DNA of 64,000 nucleotides from Antedon mediterranea (lineage: Eukaryota; Echinodermata; Crinoidea; Comatulida; Antedonidae). Shown one piece after another: positions 6,069-57,505 of this stretch. The stretch lies in contig NC_092679.1 in NCBI RefSeq assembly GCF_964355755.1, positions 20,140,932-20,204,931 of the forward strand, in the 5' to 3' direction. The translations under genes were made by a program, and so were the position numbers. Position 1 is the stretch's first letter. Every line of letters starts with the position of its first letter. The notes under the pieces were generated by a model that was not told the origin of the DNA, did no database searches, and worked only from the letters and a program-made list of their open reading frames with translations.

Positions 6069-6376
6069 ATCATCCCATACATCATGCATAAGTTTGTACT
6101 GAGATTTAATACTATAGTATTATATCTAAGTATTTTATTACCTGCGTACAAAAGACAAGGAACATGTGGTTCCACATATGTCTCAGTATACAAATTGAAT
6201 AAAGCTTTTGTAAACAAACAAAAGATATGATCAAACACTGTGGAGAATATTAAATTAAATTCACCGGCAAAATAATATGTTTATTGATATTGCATGATGG
6301 TAATACTAATATTAGGCTAGCACATTAGATGAGTAGCCAACTTAGTATCTTTCTACACTTACTATCCAACTTTATG
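6069..6376 (+). repeat. 308-bp direct repeat, left copy, flanking the LINE
   Basis: This segment recurs at 8027-8334 with no difference that I can see. It lies immediately 5' of the inserted LINE. Its last 20-25 bases are part of a TCTACACTATCAAAC-family MITE whose remainder continues only after the right copy. The unoccupied site was therefore one MITE-containing locus. Confidence 0.85.
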
Positions 6377-8026
6377 AATCCGAGATATTAGTTACCAAAA
6401 ATGAAAATGAAGACACAGAAATCCGCGAAAATGAGACTTCATTAGTAAACAATGCAGTCATAAATGTAGTTGATGTGCGTAATGTATTCGCCAAAGTAAA
6501 GCCTGGTAAAAGTACTGGCCCTGATGGAATTGGAAATCGTGTTATTAAATACTGCAACCAAGAGTTGGCACCGATATATACCAAACTTTTTAATGAGAGT
6601 TTAGCAAGTGGTACAGTGCCCAATCAATGGAAAACGGCCTGTATCTCACCTATTCCTAAGATAAAAAATCCCAAGGAACTTAATGACTATAGGCCAATAG
6701 CTATCACATCCAATGTTAGTAAGTGCCTAGAAAAGATTGTACTTAGGCAGTTGCTTGATCAGACCAAATTGTTTCTCGATCCTCTCCAATTTGCCTATCA
6801 GAGTAATAGAAGTGTTGAAGATGCTGTGCTCTTCCACTTACATAATATTTACCAACATTTAGATGTGCCTAAATCATATGTAAGATGTTTGTATATAGAT
6901 TTTTCTAGTGCTTTTAATACCGTTGAACCTGGTTCATTAGTACGCAAACTTAAAGAAATGAACGTAAACGACACATTGACTTCATGGATATATAATTTCT
7001 TAACAAAAAGGTTCCAGTATGTTAAACTAAACGGTATTTTATCTGATAAAAGAACTGTTAGCATTGGCACGCCACAAGGGTCTGTTATCTCCCCAATGTT
7101 GTTTTCACTGTTCACCAGCAGTTTCAGAGCCAATTCAAATGAATGTTGTATAGTAAAATATGCAGATGACACAGTCATCACTGGATACATTACTGGCAAT
7201 GATGAAACAAGCTATAGACAACTAGGATGTGATTTTTATCACTGGTGCTGCAATAACAACCTGAAACTAAACATAAAGAAAACAAAAGAAATGCAAATTG
7301 ATTTTAGGAAAATTAAAGAACCCTTAGAACCTCTGATTATAAATGAAAATGAGATTGAAGTAGTAAATGAGTACAAATATCTGGGTTGTATAATTGACAA
7401 TAAGCTAAATTGGATAAATAATGTAAATAAAGCCACATGCAAAGCCAACCAAAGGATGTTTATTTTAAGAAAAATGAAGTACCTACAAATTGACAAAACT
7501 ATACTTAAATTGTTTTATAACTCTGTAATTCTCAGTGTAATACTTTTTTGTAATGTTTGTTTTTATGGTAATACAATGCAAAAAGATAAAATTAAACTTA
7601 ATCGAATAGGAAATAGAGCAATTAGACTAGTAGGAGAGCACTTACCTGATGTTGAATCCTTGTATAAAGAAAATGTGTTAAAAAAAGTAAAAAGTATCAT
7701 TGATGATGAAACACATCCTCTTCACAAACAATTTGCTCTCATGAATTCTGGCATAAGACTACGTGCACTTAATACCAAAACAAAACGGTTTAGGTGCTCG
7801 TTTGTACCTAATGCTATACACTTATATAACTCCAGAGTACAAAGGTAAAATGTAATTGTAACCGATAATTTTTATCTAATTTTAACAATTTTTAGCCTCT
7901 TAACTTTTTGTGTGTGTTTTTGTAAATTGTATTTTATATTTTTGTATTTTGCCAGTTTTCAAATCACATTTCTGTTTTTTAAATGGACAATAAAGTATAT
8001 ATGACTATGACTATATGACTATGACT
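6377..8026 (+). mobile_element. 5'-truncated non-LTR retrotransposon (CR1/L2/Rex1-like), recent
   Basis: The insert is 1650 bp. It contains a reverse transcriptase ORF open from its first bases to 7848, a 3' UTR of about 150 bp, and a tail of TGACTA-type units (about 8001-8026). Class: the RT motif spacing and the short tandem 3' tail fit the CR1/L2/Rex1 branch of LINEs. There is no 5' UTR, endonuclease or ORF1, so the copy is 5'-truncated and cannot act on its own. The unbroken ORF and apparently identical 308-bp flanking repeats point to a recent insertion. Confidence 0.85.
6379..7848 (+). CDS. reverse transcriptase of truncated LINE, 489 aa open fragment
   Basis: The frame is open from the 5' truncation point. 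It has no native start codon, and the GTG at 6475 is internal. RT motifs are in order: GKSTGPDG (fingers), DYRPIAITS, LYIDFSSAFNT with the motif A aspartate near residue 174, GTPQGSVISPMLFSL (motif B), YADD (motif C, about residues 261-264), LKLNIKKTKE (motif D) and YKYLGCIIDNKLNW (thumb side). All catalytic aspartates are present. The C-terminal part, with NRIGNRAIRLVG, is typical of this LINE branch. The apurinic endonuclease domain expected upstream is missing. No frameshift or internal stop is seen. The protein would catalyse target-primed reverse transcription in an intact element. Confidence 0.9.
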   Translation, partial: SEILVTKNENEDTEIRENETSLVNNAVINVVDVRNVFAKVKPGKSTGPDGIGNRVIKYCNQELAPIYTKLFNESLASGTVPNQWKTACISPIPKIKNPKELNDYRPIAITSNVSKCLEKIVLRQLLDQTKLFLDPLQFAYQSNRSVEDAVLFHLHNIYQHLDVPKSYVRCLYIDFSSAFNTVEPGSLVRKLKEMNVNDTLTSWIYNFLTKRFQYVKLNGILSDKRTVSIGTPQGSVISPMLFSLFTSSFRANSNECCIVKYADDTVITGYITGNDETSYRQLGCDFYHWCCNNNLKLNIKKTKEMQIDFRKIKEPLEPLIINENEIEVVNEYKYLGCIIDNKLNWINNVNKATCKANQRMFILRKMKYLQIDKTILKLFYNSVILSVILFCNVCFYGNTMQKDKIKLNRIGNRAIRLVGEHLPDVESLYKENVLKKVKSIIDDETHPLHKQFALMNSGIRLRALNTKTKRFRCSFVPNAIHLYNSRVQR

Positions 8027-12182: not shown

Positions 12183-12371
12183 TAAAGCTCTGTTTAGACT
12201 ATCAAACTAGTTTGACAAAAAAAAGTGTGATTTGCCCAAATATGGTGGTGATATGCCCTAATATAGTAGTGATATGCCCTAATATAGTAGTGATATGACA
12301 TCATTTCTGTCCATAATGGACACATCACATATTTTTGTCACATAAAGTTTGATAGTGTAGACAAAGCTTAA
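12183..12371. mobile_element. MITE, TCTACACTATCAAAC family, expanded internal repeat
   Basis: Ends are AAGCTCTGTTTAGACTATC and GATAGTGTAGACAAAGCTT. The inner 21-bp unit GTGATATGCCCTAATATAGTA occurs about three times in tandem (12248-12300), against one or two in most other copies. TTAA lies at the right edge. Confidence 0.8.
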
Positions 12372-15600: not shown

Positions 15601-15622
15601 TCCTCATTTCAGACACCCATAT

Positions 15623-15912
15623 TTAGGAGACACTCCTATTAAGGGGACACTCCTATTAAGGGGACACTCCTATTTAGGAGACACTCCTATTAAGGGGACA
15701 CTCCTATTAAGGGGACACTCCTATTAAGGGGACACTCCTATTAAGGGGACACTCCTATTAAGGGGACACTCCTATTTAGGAGACACTCCTATTAAGGGGA
15801 CACTCCTATTAAGGGGACACTCCTATTAAGGGGACACTCCTATTTAGGGGACACTCCTATTAAGGGGACACTCCTATTAAGGGGACACTCCTATTAAGGG
15901 GACACTCTCCTA
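15623..15912 (+). repeat. 17-bp minisatellite, 17 units
   Basis: The unit AAGGGGACACTCCTATT is repeated 17 times. Units 1, 4 and 10 carry TAGGAG in place of AAGGGG, and unit 14 carries TAGGGG. The array ends in a degenerate ACACTCTCCTATG. The unit equals the terminal motif of the dispersed CCTATTAAGGGGACAC element, a copy of which sits just downstream (15955-16015). Confidence 0.95.
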
Positions 15913-16456: not shown

Positions 16457-19400
16457 CTGTAACATATAATATAAAATAGTGAGTGAATAATATAATACTG
16501 TTAAATTGGTCAGATTTTTCCATACTCTTGACGTAATTGTACTTTAAGTACATACGAGAATACTTGCAAATAATTATTAACTTATCATATAGTATCGTAA
16601 TAATACAAACAAAAAAAGTAAGTTGGTGATCTTTACATCAGAATATTTTATCTTAAAATCTATAGATCATGCTACATTTGTGTCTGATCATGTAAGTTAT
16701 AGAAGACCTAAATGCATGGCGCGCCACTCTGGTCAGTAATATAAATCACCACCAAGATTTACGCCAGATTTACTCATCCCATCATTTTTTTTGGATAACT
16801 ATATTTTTTGGTGACGGCTTAAACTTGCCAATTGAACATGATAACATTTTTGTATTCAGTAGCACACCATGAATGTGGGCATTCCATACGGTGGTCAATA
16901 TGTACTGTGACCGCATGATGATTGTATCTTAGAGTGGCCAATATGAGTACTGACTGATTGAAATACAGCCAACCACCTATAATAGTTCAACTTATATATA
17001 GATACTAACTTCTTTGTCATACACTTGTCAAAGTTTGGCCACAGTCCTGGACGCTTGGTCTAAGTTGATCTAATTAGCATATTAGTGAGTACTTAGTGTA
17101 ACTAGCAAAAAACATACCTGGAAATCATTGCTTTTGTTGTAGTGAAGATTCAACGAACGGAATATTTCCGAGTCTGTCGACACATTAATCTGATCGGGAC
17201 TGTCAACTCCCTCGCTGAGAAACTGTCGGGAAAACTTCTCCATCTGAATGTAGTAGAACTCGCGGAAGTTACTGAACCATTTGATGATCTGCGAGGTGTT
17301 GTGTCGGTTGAATTTCACGTCTGGGAAGTGTTGTTTGAGGATGGACGAGCTTGGGTAACGAGTGTAGAAGAACATGAGTTTGGCCTTCTTCAAGTGAGAT
17401 GGCGTGAGTGTTGATGTTAGCGAGTACACTTTGGTTAAGGATTAAAACAATTTATTTTTAATTGCATACAACAAATATATCAAAATAACACTTGATAACA
17501 AATAAATATTTATCGCTTTATGCTAATGAACAACACTAAAATGTATATAGGAAATGTCGTTTCTTTCTCACTTTTATTTAATTTATGTTGTGTTTTATTT
17601 TTTATGTTTTTATGTAAAGGGTCCTGCAAAAACAGAATTGTAAACTTCTTTAATTATGCAGGATCCTTGCCATCAATTATTACTGAAATTGTAATTATAA
17701 ACTATGACTTAAATAAATGTGAATGAATTGAAAATTGAATTGAATTGAAATGTTATTTTATTTATTTTTAATTGTTTATGACATATATACTTGATGACCT
17801 TTTCTTTGATATTTAAAGTTTGATTTTAAATGTTTTATAATCACAAAATAAACTTTGATTAACTTCAACCATAGAGATCTCTATGCTTCAACCAAAAAGT
17901 AGGTGCAGTTTTCCCCATTGTGTTTTGACCTCAATTTCTTTAATTAAATTTAAGTAATTAACGAATGAAGAATTCATGCCTTTATCTATTGGTTTAATTC
18001 ACAATGGTCATTTGTTACGGTTGCCATTATACAGTAGTATCATTAAAAAAATTAAACAAGCAAATTATATCAGGGTTATCATCGATAAGTGACCGACCTA
18101 CTCTTAAGATCCAATGAATTTACCTGAGGTTTTGTGGATTAAAATGGTTGTGAAGTAATAATTTAAAGTCTGTTTTATGGGATATAAAGCTCCATTCATA
18201 TCCAAATCTTTATTTCCAAATATATTGTTTCATTTTAAAGATAAATTCCATGGGTAGTAATCTGCCATTCTTGGCAACCAAGTTTACAAAGACATCCTTT
18301 TTTTATTTTTGTAAAATTGTGAATTTTTTTTGTAATTAATTTTTTTCAATTTTAAAGAATTATTATGCTAATCTAATAAAAATGATGGAGAATTAATCTT
18401 TATGTTTTGTTTAATATCATAAATTTTTTCTACTGATCATCTTCATAATTTGAAAAAGGTGTTTATTGTGCTTAGAAGAATCATGATAATAATTACCACC
18501 ATGTAGCTTATGCCAGGGAGATAAGTTAATTAATCAGAGAGCCCTCATTTGTGTTTTTCCCTATTTTTAAAAAAGGCTTCAATATGTTATTAATTTGAAA
18601 TATAAAAACATGGCACGGAAATACTTTATAATCAGTATGTACAATTTCAAGTCATGGTTCTGGACCTGACAAAAACATTTTAAACCATTAATTTTCGTTT
18701 TTATATATGTCACCGCTGGTGTTTTTAATAGGACAACCAAATCCCTAGGTCAAAGTTGACAATCGCAACTACAAGACAAATAGTTATAATGTATTAATAA
18801 AGCAATAAAGATATTAATAAATAAACAATAAACAAAGGATATTGTTCCATTGGCGGCATTATAAATTGAAAGATCTGTAGTTCCGTCGTGGTAGTAACCA
18901 GAATCGCCCATATCGGTTTTTATCATTGGTACGGTCAACGCTTCGTAGTGTGGCATGTCACCGCTGGTAGCGTCAGTGTGTAGCATGCTAGCAGCATGGT
19001 GCGACATCAATGGACTACTTGAGAATCTAAAATAATAAATAAGTTTAAAATTTAGTACATAAATTAATCGTTTGCAAAAACTAGATTGATTGATTGAAGG
19101 GGACGCCTCCAGGAACCAACAGTGTCTCCTAAAGAGGTATTCCCTGAATAGGCGTTGACTGAAGTGTTAAAACTACATTATCCCTTTTTCATCTTATGGG
19201 GAAAAAGGTCCCCTTAATAGGAGTGTCTACTGTATAGTAGTAGTTCACCAATGAAAAATATATCAACTGTTTTAAAAAATGACATTAACTAATTGTTTTA
19301 ATAAGATACTGTGTATTCTTTACCATGCATACATAAACAATACGATAAATTGTACACAATATAACTGAATAATAAAAAAAAACCAAATATTTTTAATCAA

Positions 19401-25400: not shown

Positions 25401-27643
25401 TTTTAAATAGTAATCTTACTTAAAGCTTTTAGTTCCCACTAGAGCGCAACGGAAGGACATACACGCAAAGCAAGTTGCCAAATCCAAGTTTGGATGATTT
25501 GTTGATTGTGATTGGTCAAATTACTTATGATGCGTAATTTCTATTGCGTACTAGTGTGAACCATTGAGGTATAAAATTAGAAATAAAAAATCTAATTTTA
25601 TACCTCTATGCGTGAACCATGTGTATTAAGAAATAGTAATTCATTTTCAAATAAATTTCATGTATTTTTTAAACACCTATACAGTAATTGATAATTTTAT
25701 CATTTTTTTCTGTGGATAAATTTAATTTGTATATTGTTGTTTGGTATAAAAAAACCTACACATTTTAACAAGTAGGTTTATTGTTGTCTACTATTGTAAT
25801 TATCTGTTCTGTTGAATCACTAGTTTTTTTTTATAGAACAAATTCTCTGCAGGTATAACCATTTGTTTGTTAAATAAACCGTTACGAAAACAACATAAAT
25901 CCTACTTAAAAGTTCCAGTGTTTAAAAATAAATATGTTATCATAATTATGAACAATTGTAAGAATTAATTTCTAATATGAACTTCATTTTTGTGTTGGGG
26001 ATTATTTAGCTAATTTACTATTGGGTAACTTAACACAATACCTTTACAAAACTTCAAAAGAATAACATATGCTTTTGGTTTTGTTTGGTATTGACGTTTC
26101 TTTACTTTCACATGTTTTGAAACATACCAACTTATTGCATGCCATAGTATTGAGTACATTTTAACAATTAATTTATACCTTACAGTATTTTCTATCTATC
26201 TATAGTATTTTCATGATTATTGTTTAGTGTAGTTTAAAATAATAACAGTTTATTTGGAAATTTTTAAGCATTTATAAAGTTTTATAAATCTTGCTGAAAT
26301 ATAAAACAGTAGTAATTGATACAAATGATAGAAAGTTGTCCTTACCTCATATCTTCTAGAACATCTCGACTCTCTGGCATGGCACTATGCATCATTGCCA
26401 TTGATAAAGAATGATTGAGGCTCGGGTTTGGAATTGCTACACTAGTTGGCAAAGACGATGGTAGAGGCGTTTCAAACTCTGACTCGGTACGATGTCGGAC
26501 AGAAGCTGCCGCTGTCACGTTCGTATCACGAACTCGTGTACGATGTGGCACGATCAAAGGGATGGCTTCCATCTGTTCGGAAATGTCTTGATGAACTCTC
26601 GGAGTTGGCTTTAGTGGCATCTGATGGCTGGGTGGTGACGGTCTTTCATAATGATTGTTATTGTTGTTACCTGGGCTCGGGGTTGCAACTGGCTTTCGTT
26701 GTTTGGAAGACTTTTGTGATTCTGGTGCAGATGCCGGTGGCGGCTTAAACTGACTTAAGACAGAATCAACTGTTGCTGATACAACATTTGTTAGTTCTTG
26801 CTTTAGAGCATCTGTGAATTTTCCTGATTTCTGGCTGGCAGCCGTTAATTTCTGTAAGCTTTTGCTTAGATTAGGCACTTGAATTGGAGACTCTCTGATG
26901 TCATCGAGATCATCAGAGCTATCTGACAAGCTACTGTTGTCATCTTCGTAAAGATCAAAATACTTTTCTTGAAGCATATCTAGTTGTTGCTGAAGATGAT
27001 ATAAAAGATCTTTCAACTTACGTCTTTCTTCCCTGCGAGTCTGTTTACGTTCATCCAAAACCCTTTGCTGTTGAGGTTGCGATTGCTTACGTTTTTGTCG
27101 ACGCGATTCCAAAGGAGGAGTGTTTGACGGTTCTGGGATTTGACGCAGAGGTGACTGACGCATGGTGCTCAAGATGTTTTCAACTCGCGCTCTTTTCGCT
27201 TCCGCACTGTCTGGTGTGTTTTCATAAATAGGACTTTGATTTCCATTACATCGTCTTTCTATAGAATATTGTCCTCCATTATGCAAACTCTCTTCTTTTG
27301 TGTCCATCTCGTGAGTTGCTTCCGACGATGGTGATCGTTGCATCATATCTAAGTTATTTTGACTCGCTGCCTGCATTTTTGCTTTTAAAATATGTGACAT
27401 GATTGAAGAACCGTCGTGTGATTTATCTCCAAAAGATTGTTCCATTTCACTTACGTTTTGACCGTGTTTTAACAACTTGCGTAGAACCTCTGTCGTGTCG
27501 GAAGACGTTAAGGACATACTTCCGTTCCCGTTCATTAGCATGGCATTAGCGTGCAGCTTGTTTTGAGAATGAACACTTCTCGGCACGCCTACGTCGACTC
27601 TACGTCGTTTCTGCCTTATTACTTGATCGTCCACATCAGACAT
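16277..27643 (-). CDS. prox1: Prospero homeobox protein (Prox1/Prospero), 664 aa, five coding exons
   Basis: Coding exons: 26346-27643, 20256-20282, 18843-19026, 17118-17423 and 16277-16456. The product is a nuclear transcription factor of the Prospero family, which controls differentiation of neural and other cell types. In order: basic [10 protein letters not shown] at residues 10-19 (family N-terminus and NLS), VLRKLL at 53-58 (nuclear-receptor-box type), [10 protein letters not shown] at 149-158, a charged [11 protein letters not shown]...LQEKYFDLY helix at 204-232, ALKQEL...VDSVLSQF at 279-299, and a Ser/Pro/Gln-rich linker. The atypical homeodomain (about 510-575, with [15 protein letters not shown]) is fused to the Prospero domain (to residue 664, with [11 protein letters not shown]). 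Length is close to vertebrate Prox1 (about 737 aa). The start is fixed by an in-frame TAG 30 bases upstream. The homeodomain intron appears to be U12-type AT-AC. Identity is certain from the C-terminal homeo-Prospero domain. Confidence 0.95.
17118..17423 (-). CDS. prox1: prox1 coding exon 4 (homeodomain)
   Basis: Residues 504-605, from [19 protein letters not shown] to SNDFQ. The donor CAG|GTATGT at 17117 is strong. The exon carries the whole atypical homeodomain, including the three-residue-expanded Prospero type and the recognition helix [12 protein letters not shown]. If the upstream acceptor is the AC at 17424-17425, the exon opens in phase 0, matching the phase 0 end of exon 3. The only nearby AG (17429-17430) gives a phase that no good GT donor of exon 3 satisfies. 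Confidence 0.95.
17434..17441 (-). promoter_or_regulatory. U12 branch site TCCTTAAC
   Basis: This octamer matches the minor-spliceosome branch consensus and sits 11 nt from the AC acceptor. Such spacing is required for U12 introns. U2 branch sites are far more degenerate. Confidence 0.8.
17530..17745 (+). mobile_element. LINE 3' UTR fragment with TTGAA tail
   Basis: CTAAAATGTATATAGGAAATG, AAAGGGTCCTGCAAAAACAG, GCAGGATCCTTGCCATCA and a tail of TTGAATTGAATTGAA are shared with 61262-61455. It is a 5'-truncated 3' end of one LINE family, lying within the AT-AC intron. Confidence 0.7.
18843..19026 (-). CDS. prox1: prox1 coding exon 3 (linker before homeodomain)
   Basis: The acceptor TTATTTTAG|ATTCTC at 19027 is good. 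Phase 2 entry continues both from the microexon and directly from exon 1. The exon encodes [14 protein letters not shown]...[17 protein letters not shown]...NAANGT and ends in phase 0 at 18843. The IKT-MGD stretch corresponds in position to the IKSECGD-type motif just ahead of the homeodomain in vertebrate Prox1. The reading frame continues past the splice site for 31 further codons of intron. Confidence 0.9.
19088..19236. repeat. dispersed TATTAAGGGGAC element, near-complete copy
   Basis: Left arm AGGGGACGCCTCCAGGAACC and right arm GGTCCCCTTAATAGGAGTG form a loose inverted pair about 150 bp apart, with CCTGAATAGGCGTT inside. It ends TCTACTGTA. It lies in a prox1 intron. Confidence 0.5.
20256..20282 (-). 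CDS. prox1: prox1 27-nt microexon
   Basis: On the minus strand CTATCATCAG|ATATTCTTCC...CGACC|GTAAGTAAC has a good acceptor and a near-perfect donor. The exon is 27 nt, phase 2 to 2, adding YSSAHFFR and shared edge residues between exons 1 and 3. Skipping it also keeps the frame, so it can act as a cassette. Its AHFFRP product lies where vertebrate Prox1 has an FRHPFP-like motif; this resemblance is from memory and short. Confidence 0.75.
20930..21055 (-). promoter_or_regulatory. candidate intronic cis-regulatory block in prox1
   Basis: About 125 bp are richer in GC than the intron around them and contain three E-boxes: CAGTTG near 20962, CACCTG near 21027 and CATCTG near 21043. No ORF or repeat copy explains the block. 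An enhancer role is inference. Confidence 0.3.
22375..22440 (-). repeat. tRNA-like SINE remnant
   Basis: On the minus strand TGGTAGTCCTGAGTACACAG is followed by GATTTGGGTTCAAATCATAAC, a box B-like GGTTCAAATC. It is too short and mispaired for a functional tRNA. Confidence 0.35.
25433..25610. repeat. GTTCCCACTAG-family MITE remnant with perfect hairpin
   Basis: GTTCCCACTAGAGCGCAACG, GATTGTGATTGGTCAAATTAC and GCGTACTAGTGTGAACCA match the 9.7-10.1 kb family. At its right side a perfect 16-bp inverted repeat (25566-25581 and 25591-25606, GAGGTATAAAATTAGA) encloses a 9-nt loop. Confidence 0.6.
26346..27643 (-). CDS. prox1: prox1 coding exon 1 (N-terminal regulatory region)
   Basis: It encodes residues 1-432 plus two bases (AG) of codon 433. 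The donor ATGAG|GTAAGG lies at 26345. ATG at 27643 is preceded in frame by TAG. The exon contains the NLS, the LRKLL motif, the conserved helical segments and the low-complexity linker described for the whole gene. The coding frame runs into TAA four bases after the splice site. Confidence 0.95.
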
Positions 27644-27772
27644 TCTTCTCTGTTGTCTGCTTGATTTCTTCTATTGCACAGATTGAATGGTAAAGAACAT
27701 ATATAGCTGCTTGACTGCTGTTAATGAATGGTCTGTGCTGCTTGGTTGCAAATACACTATACTGACTAGTTT
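27644..27772 (-). other. prox1 5' UTR part of the first coding exon
   Basis: A strong acceptor, GTTTTTCTTTCAG|AAACTAG, sits at 27773, so the first coding exon very probably starts at 27772 and further leader exons lie upstream. One alternative frame is open through this 129-nt leader and stops (TGA, 27638-27636) eight bases inside the prox1 frame. Confidence 0.6.
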
Positions 27773-51732: not shown

Positions 51733-51860
51733 GAGCTCTGTCTACACTATCAAATTAGTTTGACAAAAAAAGTGTGATGTGCCCAAATACGGTAGTGATA
51801 TGCTCAAATATGGTAGATGATGTTTTTTATCACATAAAGTTTGATAGTGTAGACAGAGTA
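51733..51860. mobile_element. MITE, TCTACACTATCAAAC family
   Basis: Left end GCTCTGTCTACACTATCAAA, two inner units (GTGATGTGCCCAAATACGG, GATATGCTCAAATATGG), right end CACATAAAGTTTGATAGTG, TAGACAGAG. The central CATCATGTCC segment is deleted. Confidence 0.75.
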
Positions 51861-52591: not shown

Positions 52592-52717
52592 TTGTGATGT
52601 GCCCAAAAATGGTAGTGATGTGCCCAAATATGGTAGTGATATGACATCATCGTGTCTGTATATGATCACATCACATTTTCATTGTCACATAAAGTTTGAT
52701 AGTGTAGACAGATCTCT
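52592..52717. mobile_element. MITE, TCTACACTATCAAAC family, left end lost
   Basis: It begins inside the core (GTGATGTGCCCAAAAATGG, repeated) and ends with CACATAAAGTTTGATAGTG, TAGACAGATC. Confidence 0.7.
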
Positions 52718-56928: not shown

Positions 56929-57505
56929 TTGTAGTAATTAAAACAATACAAAAACATTTTTATGAATTATTAAAATAGTAGAAAATATGTCTCCATGATT
57001 AAAATTAAATTGTCTTCATGAAAAAATGTATCTCATTCATAAAACAGTTTGTATATCTGATTTAATAAGGAAGGAATAAGGAATTGTAGTAATTATAACA
57101 TTAACAATATAAAAATATTTTTATGAATTATCAAAATCATGGAGAATATTATGTCTCCATGATAAAATTAAATTGTCTTCATGAAAAAATGTATCTCATT
57201 CATAAAACAGTTTGTATATCTGATTTAATAAGGAAGGAATAAGGAATTGTAGTAATTATAACATTAACAATATAAAAATATTTTTATGAATTATCAAAAT
57301 CATGGAGAATATGTCTCCATGATAAAATTAAATTGTCTTCATGAAAAAATGTATCTCCGATTTAAAATCAATATAACAATAAGTAATTGTAGTAATTATC
57401 AATACAAAAACATTTTTATGAATTATCAAAATTGTAGAGAATATGTCTCCATGATTAAATTAAATTGTCTGAAAAAATGTACTCCTTTATGATACAGTTT
57501 GTAGT
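56929..57505 (+). repeat. about 163-bp tandem repeat, four copies with internal palindrome
   Basis: GGAATTGTAGTAATTATAAC, ATTTTTATGAATTATCAAAA, ATTAAATTGTCTTCATGAAA and CATAAAACAGTTTGTATATC recur with a period near 163 bp. The middle two copies are nearly identical and the outer two diverged. Each unit contains ATCATGGAGA-ATATG-TCTCCATGAT or a variant, a perfect 10-bp hairpin in the third copy. Confidence 0.85.

Follow-up and report, generated by a model that had tools for sequence, protein, structure and literature searches.

The window analysed here, a stretch of 64,000 nucleotides, carries on its minus strand a Prox1 gene whose coding sequence is broken just before the homeodomain, and the question raised by this locus is whether the break is a minor (U12-type) intron with AT-AC termini and, if so, how old such an intron would be. 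The gene belongs to the prospero class, with the homeo-prospero domain (Pfam HPD) found in both downstream exons. Comparison of the homeodomain exon with solved structures gave three matches with E <= 1e-10, two to prospero and one to Prospero homeobox protein 1. Throughout the genome (354 Mb in 18 contigs), HPD was detected in one gene only, its two matches being the two exons of this Prox1. The four exons listed in Table 1 can be joined in a frame that is open through to the stop codon, and both of the other Prox1 introns have ordinary termini (GAG/GTAAGG...TTTTAG and CAG/GTATGT...TTACAG). When viral contigs were searched for sequences related to the HPD exon, eight pattern matches were obtained, none of which was confirmed.

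Table 1. Features of the Prox1 gene in the window, listed from 5' to 3' of the gene (slashes mark exon-intron borders)
Feature	Position	Strand	Evidence or remark
Large upstream coding exon	26346..27670	-	ORF; 3' end at 26346, 5' limit is the ORF limit only
U2 donor of the large upstream exon, GAG/GTAAGG	26345	-	12.05 bits; phase 2 join to 19026
Acceptor of the MIKTD-bearing exon, TATTATTTTAG/A	19027	-	3' end of a GT-AG intron
Exon of 184 nt bearing the MIKTD motif, 5' of the minor intron	18843..19026	-	In-frame chain of four exons
AT-AC U12-type intron, 1,419 nt, phase 0	17424..18842	-	Motifs, open join, simulation
U12-type 5' splice site, ATATCCTTT	18834..18842	-	Exact consensus match; bases 4-9 complementary to U6atac AAAGGA and U11 AAAGGG
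U12-type branch site, TCCTTAAC	17434..17441	-	TCCTTA pairs with UAAGGA of the genome's U12
AC acceptor	17424..17425	-	The only AC, among six in this zone, that is in frame with the donor
Exon with homeodomain and start of prospero domain	17118..17423	-	Pfam HPD, 9.2e-55
GT-AG (U2-type) intron within the homeo-prospero domain	16457..17117	-	CAG/GTATGT...TTACAG/GTT, phase 0
Last coding exon, end of prospero domain to stop codon	16280..16456	-	Pfam HPD, 4.5e-22; open join

U12-type introns of the AT-AC subtype are characterized by the 5' splice site ATATCCTTT and by the branch site TCCTTRAC, located about 10-15 nt from the 3' end. The 3' end of the Prox1 intron reads TCCTTAAC-CAAAGTGT-AC, in which the second A of the branch site is at 17435, and 11 nt lead from there to the end of the AC at 17424. 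The letters at the borders are ...AATGGAACA/ATATCCTTTG...TTTTAATCCTTAACCAAAGTGTAC/TCGCTAACATC..., with phase 0 on both sides. When both strands of the window are counted, ATATCCTTT occurs once and TCCTTAAC twice. The stretch from the in-frame stop 5' of the HPD exon to the TPSHL codons contains six ACs, and only the one ending at 17424 keeps the frame with the ATATCCTTT donor. The original prediction had placed an AT-AC intron at 17424-18842 with the AC 11 nt past the branch and phases 0/0; the letters agree with it throughout, and the exons join openly. The donor, the branch site, the branch distance and the open in-frame join of the AT-AC subtype are all found at 18842-17424, together with a minor spliceosome in the organism. 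The phase is counted against the U12 reading, since phase 0 is less usual among minor introns, at about 22% on average (PMC10639083).

The chance occurrence of such a set of signals was estimated by simulation with a second-order Markov model of the minus strand of the window, using a donor zone of 210 nt and an acceptor zone of 120 nt. A perfect in-frame AT-AC set of donor, branch site and acceptor appeared in one of 2,000,000 simulated zone pairs, still in one of 2,000,000 when GT-AG U12 sets were also admitted, and in 192 of 400,000 when up to one mismatch per motif was tolerated, all of these figures being indicative because the zones were chosen after the site was seen.

The RNAs specific to the minor spliceosome are encoded in this genome. 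Rfam models detected, all over their cut-offs in the 354 Mb of the 18 contigs, U12 (125.7 bits), two copies of U11 (88.6 and 82.9 bits), U4atac (97.6 bits) and U6atac (136.6 bits), while the scan of the 64-kb window at gathering scores gave no RNA family. AAAGGA of U6atac (positions 11-16) pairs fully with bases 4-9 of the Prox1 donor (TCCTTT), AAAGGG of U11 (positions 3-8) pairs with the same bases with one G-U included, and UAAGGA of U12 (positions 19-24) pairs with TCCTTA of the Prox1 branch site. Partial matches over the Pfam cut-offs were also obtained for two protein families, one for PF18036 (33 bits, positions 13-52 of 89, the match being interrupted by one stop) and two for PDCD7 (33.1 and 32.8 bits), which we take to be families of the U11/U12 proteins SNRNP25 and U11-59K, respectively. 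The two U11 genes, on contigs C5 and C8, are diverged, with their first 13 bases identical. A weak second U6atac-like sequence lies on contig C7 (8523554-8523655; 33.7 bits, over the Rfam cut-off); its donor-pairing box is GAGGA, not AAAGGA, and it is probably a pseudogene.

Introns of the same kind were found in two of three control genes of the same genome. PHB2 and STX6 have AT-AC U12 introns that are conserved between fly and human, and LSM12 is a GT-AG U12 gene (Lin et al., 2010; PMC2831892). In the present genome, PHB2 has an AT-AC intron of the U12 kind, ATG/ATATCCTTTCT...ACCTTAACATTGATTTGTAC/CTG, joining ...AESAIMLGEAISQNPG..., and its exon matches a piece of human PHB2 at 83%. An STX6-like gene likewise has TTG/ATATCCTTGAT...TTCTTTAACATATTTGTTTTAC/GAATTG, joining ...EETIGIVEANPRKF... 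The exon joins of both genes presumably agree with the human proteins. For the third control, LSM12, a single exon was located, at a locus without a U12 motif. PHB2 and the STX6-like gene carry splice signals of the same kind as Prox1 in the same genome but in other genes, although the STX6-like intron differs from that of Prox1 in being of phase 1 and in having a weaker branch site (CTTTAAC).

The minor-spliceosome pathway, in which a U11/U12 di-snRNP acts first, followed by the swap to U6atac and by the attack of the branch, is established. It is the likely mechanism for Prox1, where the U11/U12 di-snRNP would bind ATATCCTTT and TCCTTAAC together, U11 at the donor would give way to U6atac, the branch A would attack, and the AC 11 nt downstream of the branch would be joined, after which NGT would read on into the homeodomain exon.

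An alternative is that the intron is an ordinary GT-AG intron, with U12 motifs that arose by coincidence or survive as relics. Six codons 5' of the HPD exon the frame is closed by a TAA ending at 17442, and the only AG between this stop and the TPSHL codons ends at 17429 (AACCAAAG). Because the in-frame stop bars AGs further upstream, a GT-AG route can retain the complete homeodomain only by way of this AG. The original prediction had denied that any GT-AG pair with a respectable donor preserves the frame. This was overstated, as six direct pairs keep the frame without a stop among 10 GTs at 19000-18750 combined with 51 AGs at 18700-17405; the best of them joins the donor at 18961 (GCG/GTGACA, 6.67 bits) to the AG at 17429, in an open frame, and its donor is fair, its score being reached or exceeded by 187 of the window's 6,909 GTs, counted over both strands. 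The acceptor at 19027 scores 1.28 bits, a value that 1,944 of 6,060 AGs equal or surpass, against 0.7 for the AG at 17429 (2,237 of 6,060); that Prox1's own acceptor is barely above its competitor makes the acceptor score a weak judge here and, like the in-frame GT-AG pairs themselves, counts against the U12 reading. The AG at 17429 is, however, preceded by AA and not by a pyrimidine. The 18961-17429 route would also lose net 114 nt (38 codons) of the upstream exon, MIKTD included, a stretch that in our judgement resembles the segment of human PROX1 around the sumoylated K556. This residue of human PROX1 is discussed in PMC7688453. As the route in addition offers no account of the near-perfect U12 signals, an ordinary intron from 18961 to 17429 is extremely unlikely.

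The same AG bears on a second GT-AG explanation, in which the 1.4 kb stretch conceals a cassette exon flanked by GT-AG introns on either side. The scan returned 187 in-frame cassette paths, the best of which (18932, 17624, 17571, 17429) reaches a summed score of 15.31 bits, but the scan was constructed so that all 187 go by way of the AG at 17429, given the upstream in-frame stop. Even in the best path the first donor scores -1.2 bits and a Lys/Asn-rich peptide is added, whereas the direct U12 join works without any insert, and a hidden exon is accordingly an exceedingly improbable solution.

Direct U12-type splicing from 18842 to 17424 is therefore preferred to both, and the remaining issue of structure is whether it is accompanied by nested U2 splicing as in Drosophila. 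The prospero twintron has been described in PMC3584512 and PMC8199999; it contains an AT-AC U12 intron adjoining the homeodomain, as in this Prox1, and a nested GT-AG intron. Alternation of the two modes of splicing here would yield two isoforms of the homeodomain. Four nested GT donors can be paired in frame with the AG at 17429. Of these, the longest option (18760) would add net 87 nt, i.e. 29 codons, which is the same as the 29-residue increment published for fly prospero (PMC3564746; PMC6865273). The nested donors nevertheless score only 0.12 (18772), -2.95 (18760), -3.49 and -6.67 bits, whereas the clear U2 donors of Prox1 reach 10.18 and 12.05 bits, and the agreement in length is probably due to chance because the donor at 18760 is so poor. 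In contrast to fly prospero, a nested U2 intron with a usable donor was not detected within 18842-17424 of this Prox1, the best of the four in-frame donors being that of 0.12 bits. The U2 sites of prospero have also been reported to have arisen early in insects (Janice et al., 2013; PMC3564746), and an insect-like twintron in this gene is very unlikely. Most simply, fly prospero acquired its nested U2 intron later, an addition that is not clearly present here, and the Prox1 result fits the view that this nested intron is derived.

A U12-type AT-AC intron is not new in the gene family. The pair pros/PROX1 is listed as AT-AC in row 15 of Table 2 of Lin et al. (2010; PMC2831892), where the fly intron is a twintron and the human intron is U12; PROX1 is paired with pros in a table of fly U12 genes (PMC2952598) and is among the few minor-intron genes that have been studied (PMC6717393). 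The prospero U12 intron is stated to be ancestral by Janice et al. (2013; PMC3564746). These sources agree with the original account of the Drosophila twintron near the homeodomain and support the proposal that the minor intron is ancestral to Prospero genes. The human intron and the present one are alike in gene family, AT-AC termini and U12 class, in different species, while the likeness in position rests on Lin et al. (2010). With this published pair added to the four minor-specific snRNA genes and to the AT-AC introns kept in PHB2 and the STX6-like gene, the U12-type class proposed originally is upheld, and, as read from the sequence, the interval 18842-17424 is very probably a U12-type AT-AC intron of the only Prox gene detected, for which the minor introns of fly prospero and human PROX1 are most likely the orthologs. 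It would on this reading actually be spliced, its position would be exactly orthologous, and it may exert some rate-limiting or regulatory effect.

The AT-AC minor intron of pros/PROX1 was already published for fly and human, and the present intron is a well-supported further example; what is added here is its retention in an apparent ambulacrarian, which joins the known cases and leaves the accepted picture of this intron unchanged. A survey of minor introns from 2023 takes in a sea star and an acorn worm (PMC10639083), and prox1 and prospero are absent from its main text, as are prox and prospero from that of PMC7367187. Among the matches listed from the open-licence literature, no mention was found of a Prox1 minor intron in an echinoderm or hemichordate.

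As to its age, the Prospero homeobox is placed among bilaterian-specific genes in a 2020 eLife study (PMC7535936), and no PROS homeodomain was found in Nematostella (PMC1779571). Since the class is reported to be bilaterian-specific, the Prox1 minor intron most simply dates to the common ancestor of protostomes and deuterostomes. A 2019 Frontiers paper assigns the PROX family to those minor-intron genes that postdate the last eukaryotic ancestor, by a method that dates genes and not introns (PMC6865273). From a bilaterian-specific class with a minor intron in fly, human and an apparent ambulacrarian, a gain in the bilaterian stem may follow, and it is possible, if somewhat doubtful, that the U12-type intron was gained there, as a rare dated minor-intron gain, instead of descending from the last eukaryotic ancestor. 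As the alternative to such a gain, an older U12 intron may have been brought in by an exon captured during the assembly of the gene. With this Prox1, a developmental regulator with a clean AT-AC intron is available for dating minor-intron gain.

The affiliation of the genome was assessed from its Hox genes; cytochrome oxidase I, which was looked for with the same aim, was not detected. A query of the Antennapedia type gave 37 homeobox matches in the genome, of which 16 loci were translated. Twelve of the 16 translated homeoboxes lie in one cluster of 0.38 Mb (contig C2, 7827797-8206135), with one inverted near the posterior end. The sequences of this cluster seem to us to resemble those of an ambulacrarian set, with Hox1-8, Hox9/10 and three Hox11/13 genes. 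The original description of the organism as a deuterostome fits this cluster of 12 Hox-like genes, whose posterior members look ambulacrarian, and is backed by it.

Several other features were noted in the window. The long ORF at 6349-7848 encodes a reverse transcriptase domain (Pfam RVT_1, 3.9e-32) and apparently belongs to a retrotransposon. Longer tandem repeats, whose periods are 163 and 132 bp, occupy 56942-57489, and related 21-bp units of the GTGATATGCCCTAATATAGTA and GTGATGTGCCCAAATACGGTA types form short arrays at 12227-12297, 51774-51823 and 52594-52640. Just 3' of the Prox1 stop codon, at 15612-15907, there is a 17-bp tandem array of 17.4 copies of GACACTCCTATTAAGGG, and single units similar to GACACTCCTATTAAGGG occur near Prox1, e.g. 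near 19220-19090 and 20500-20430.
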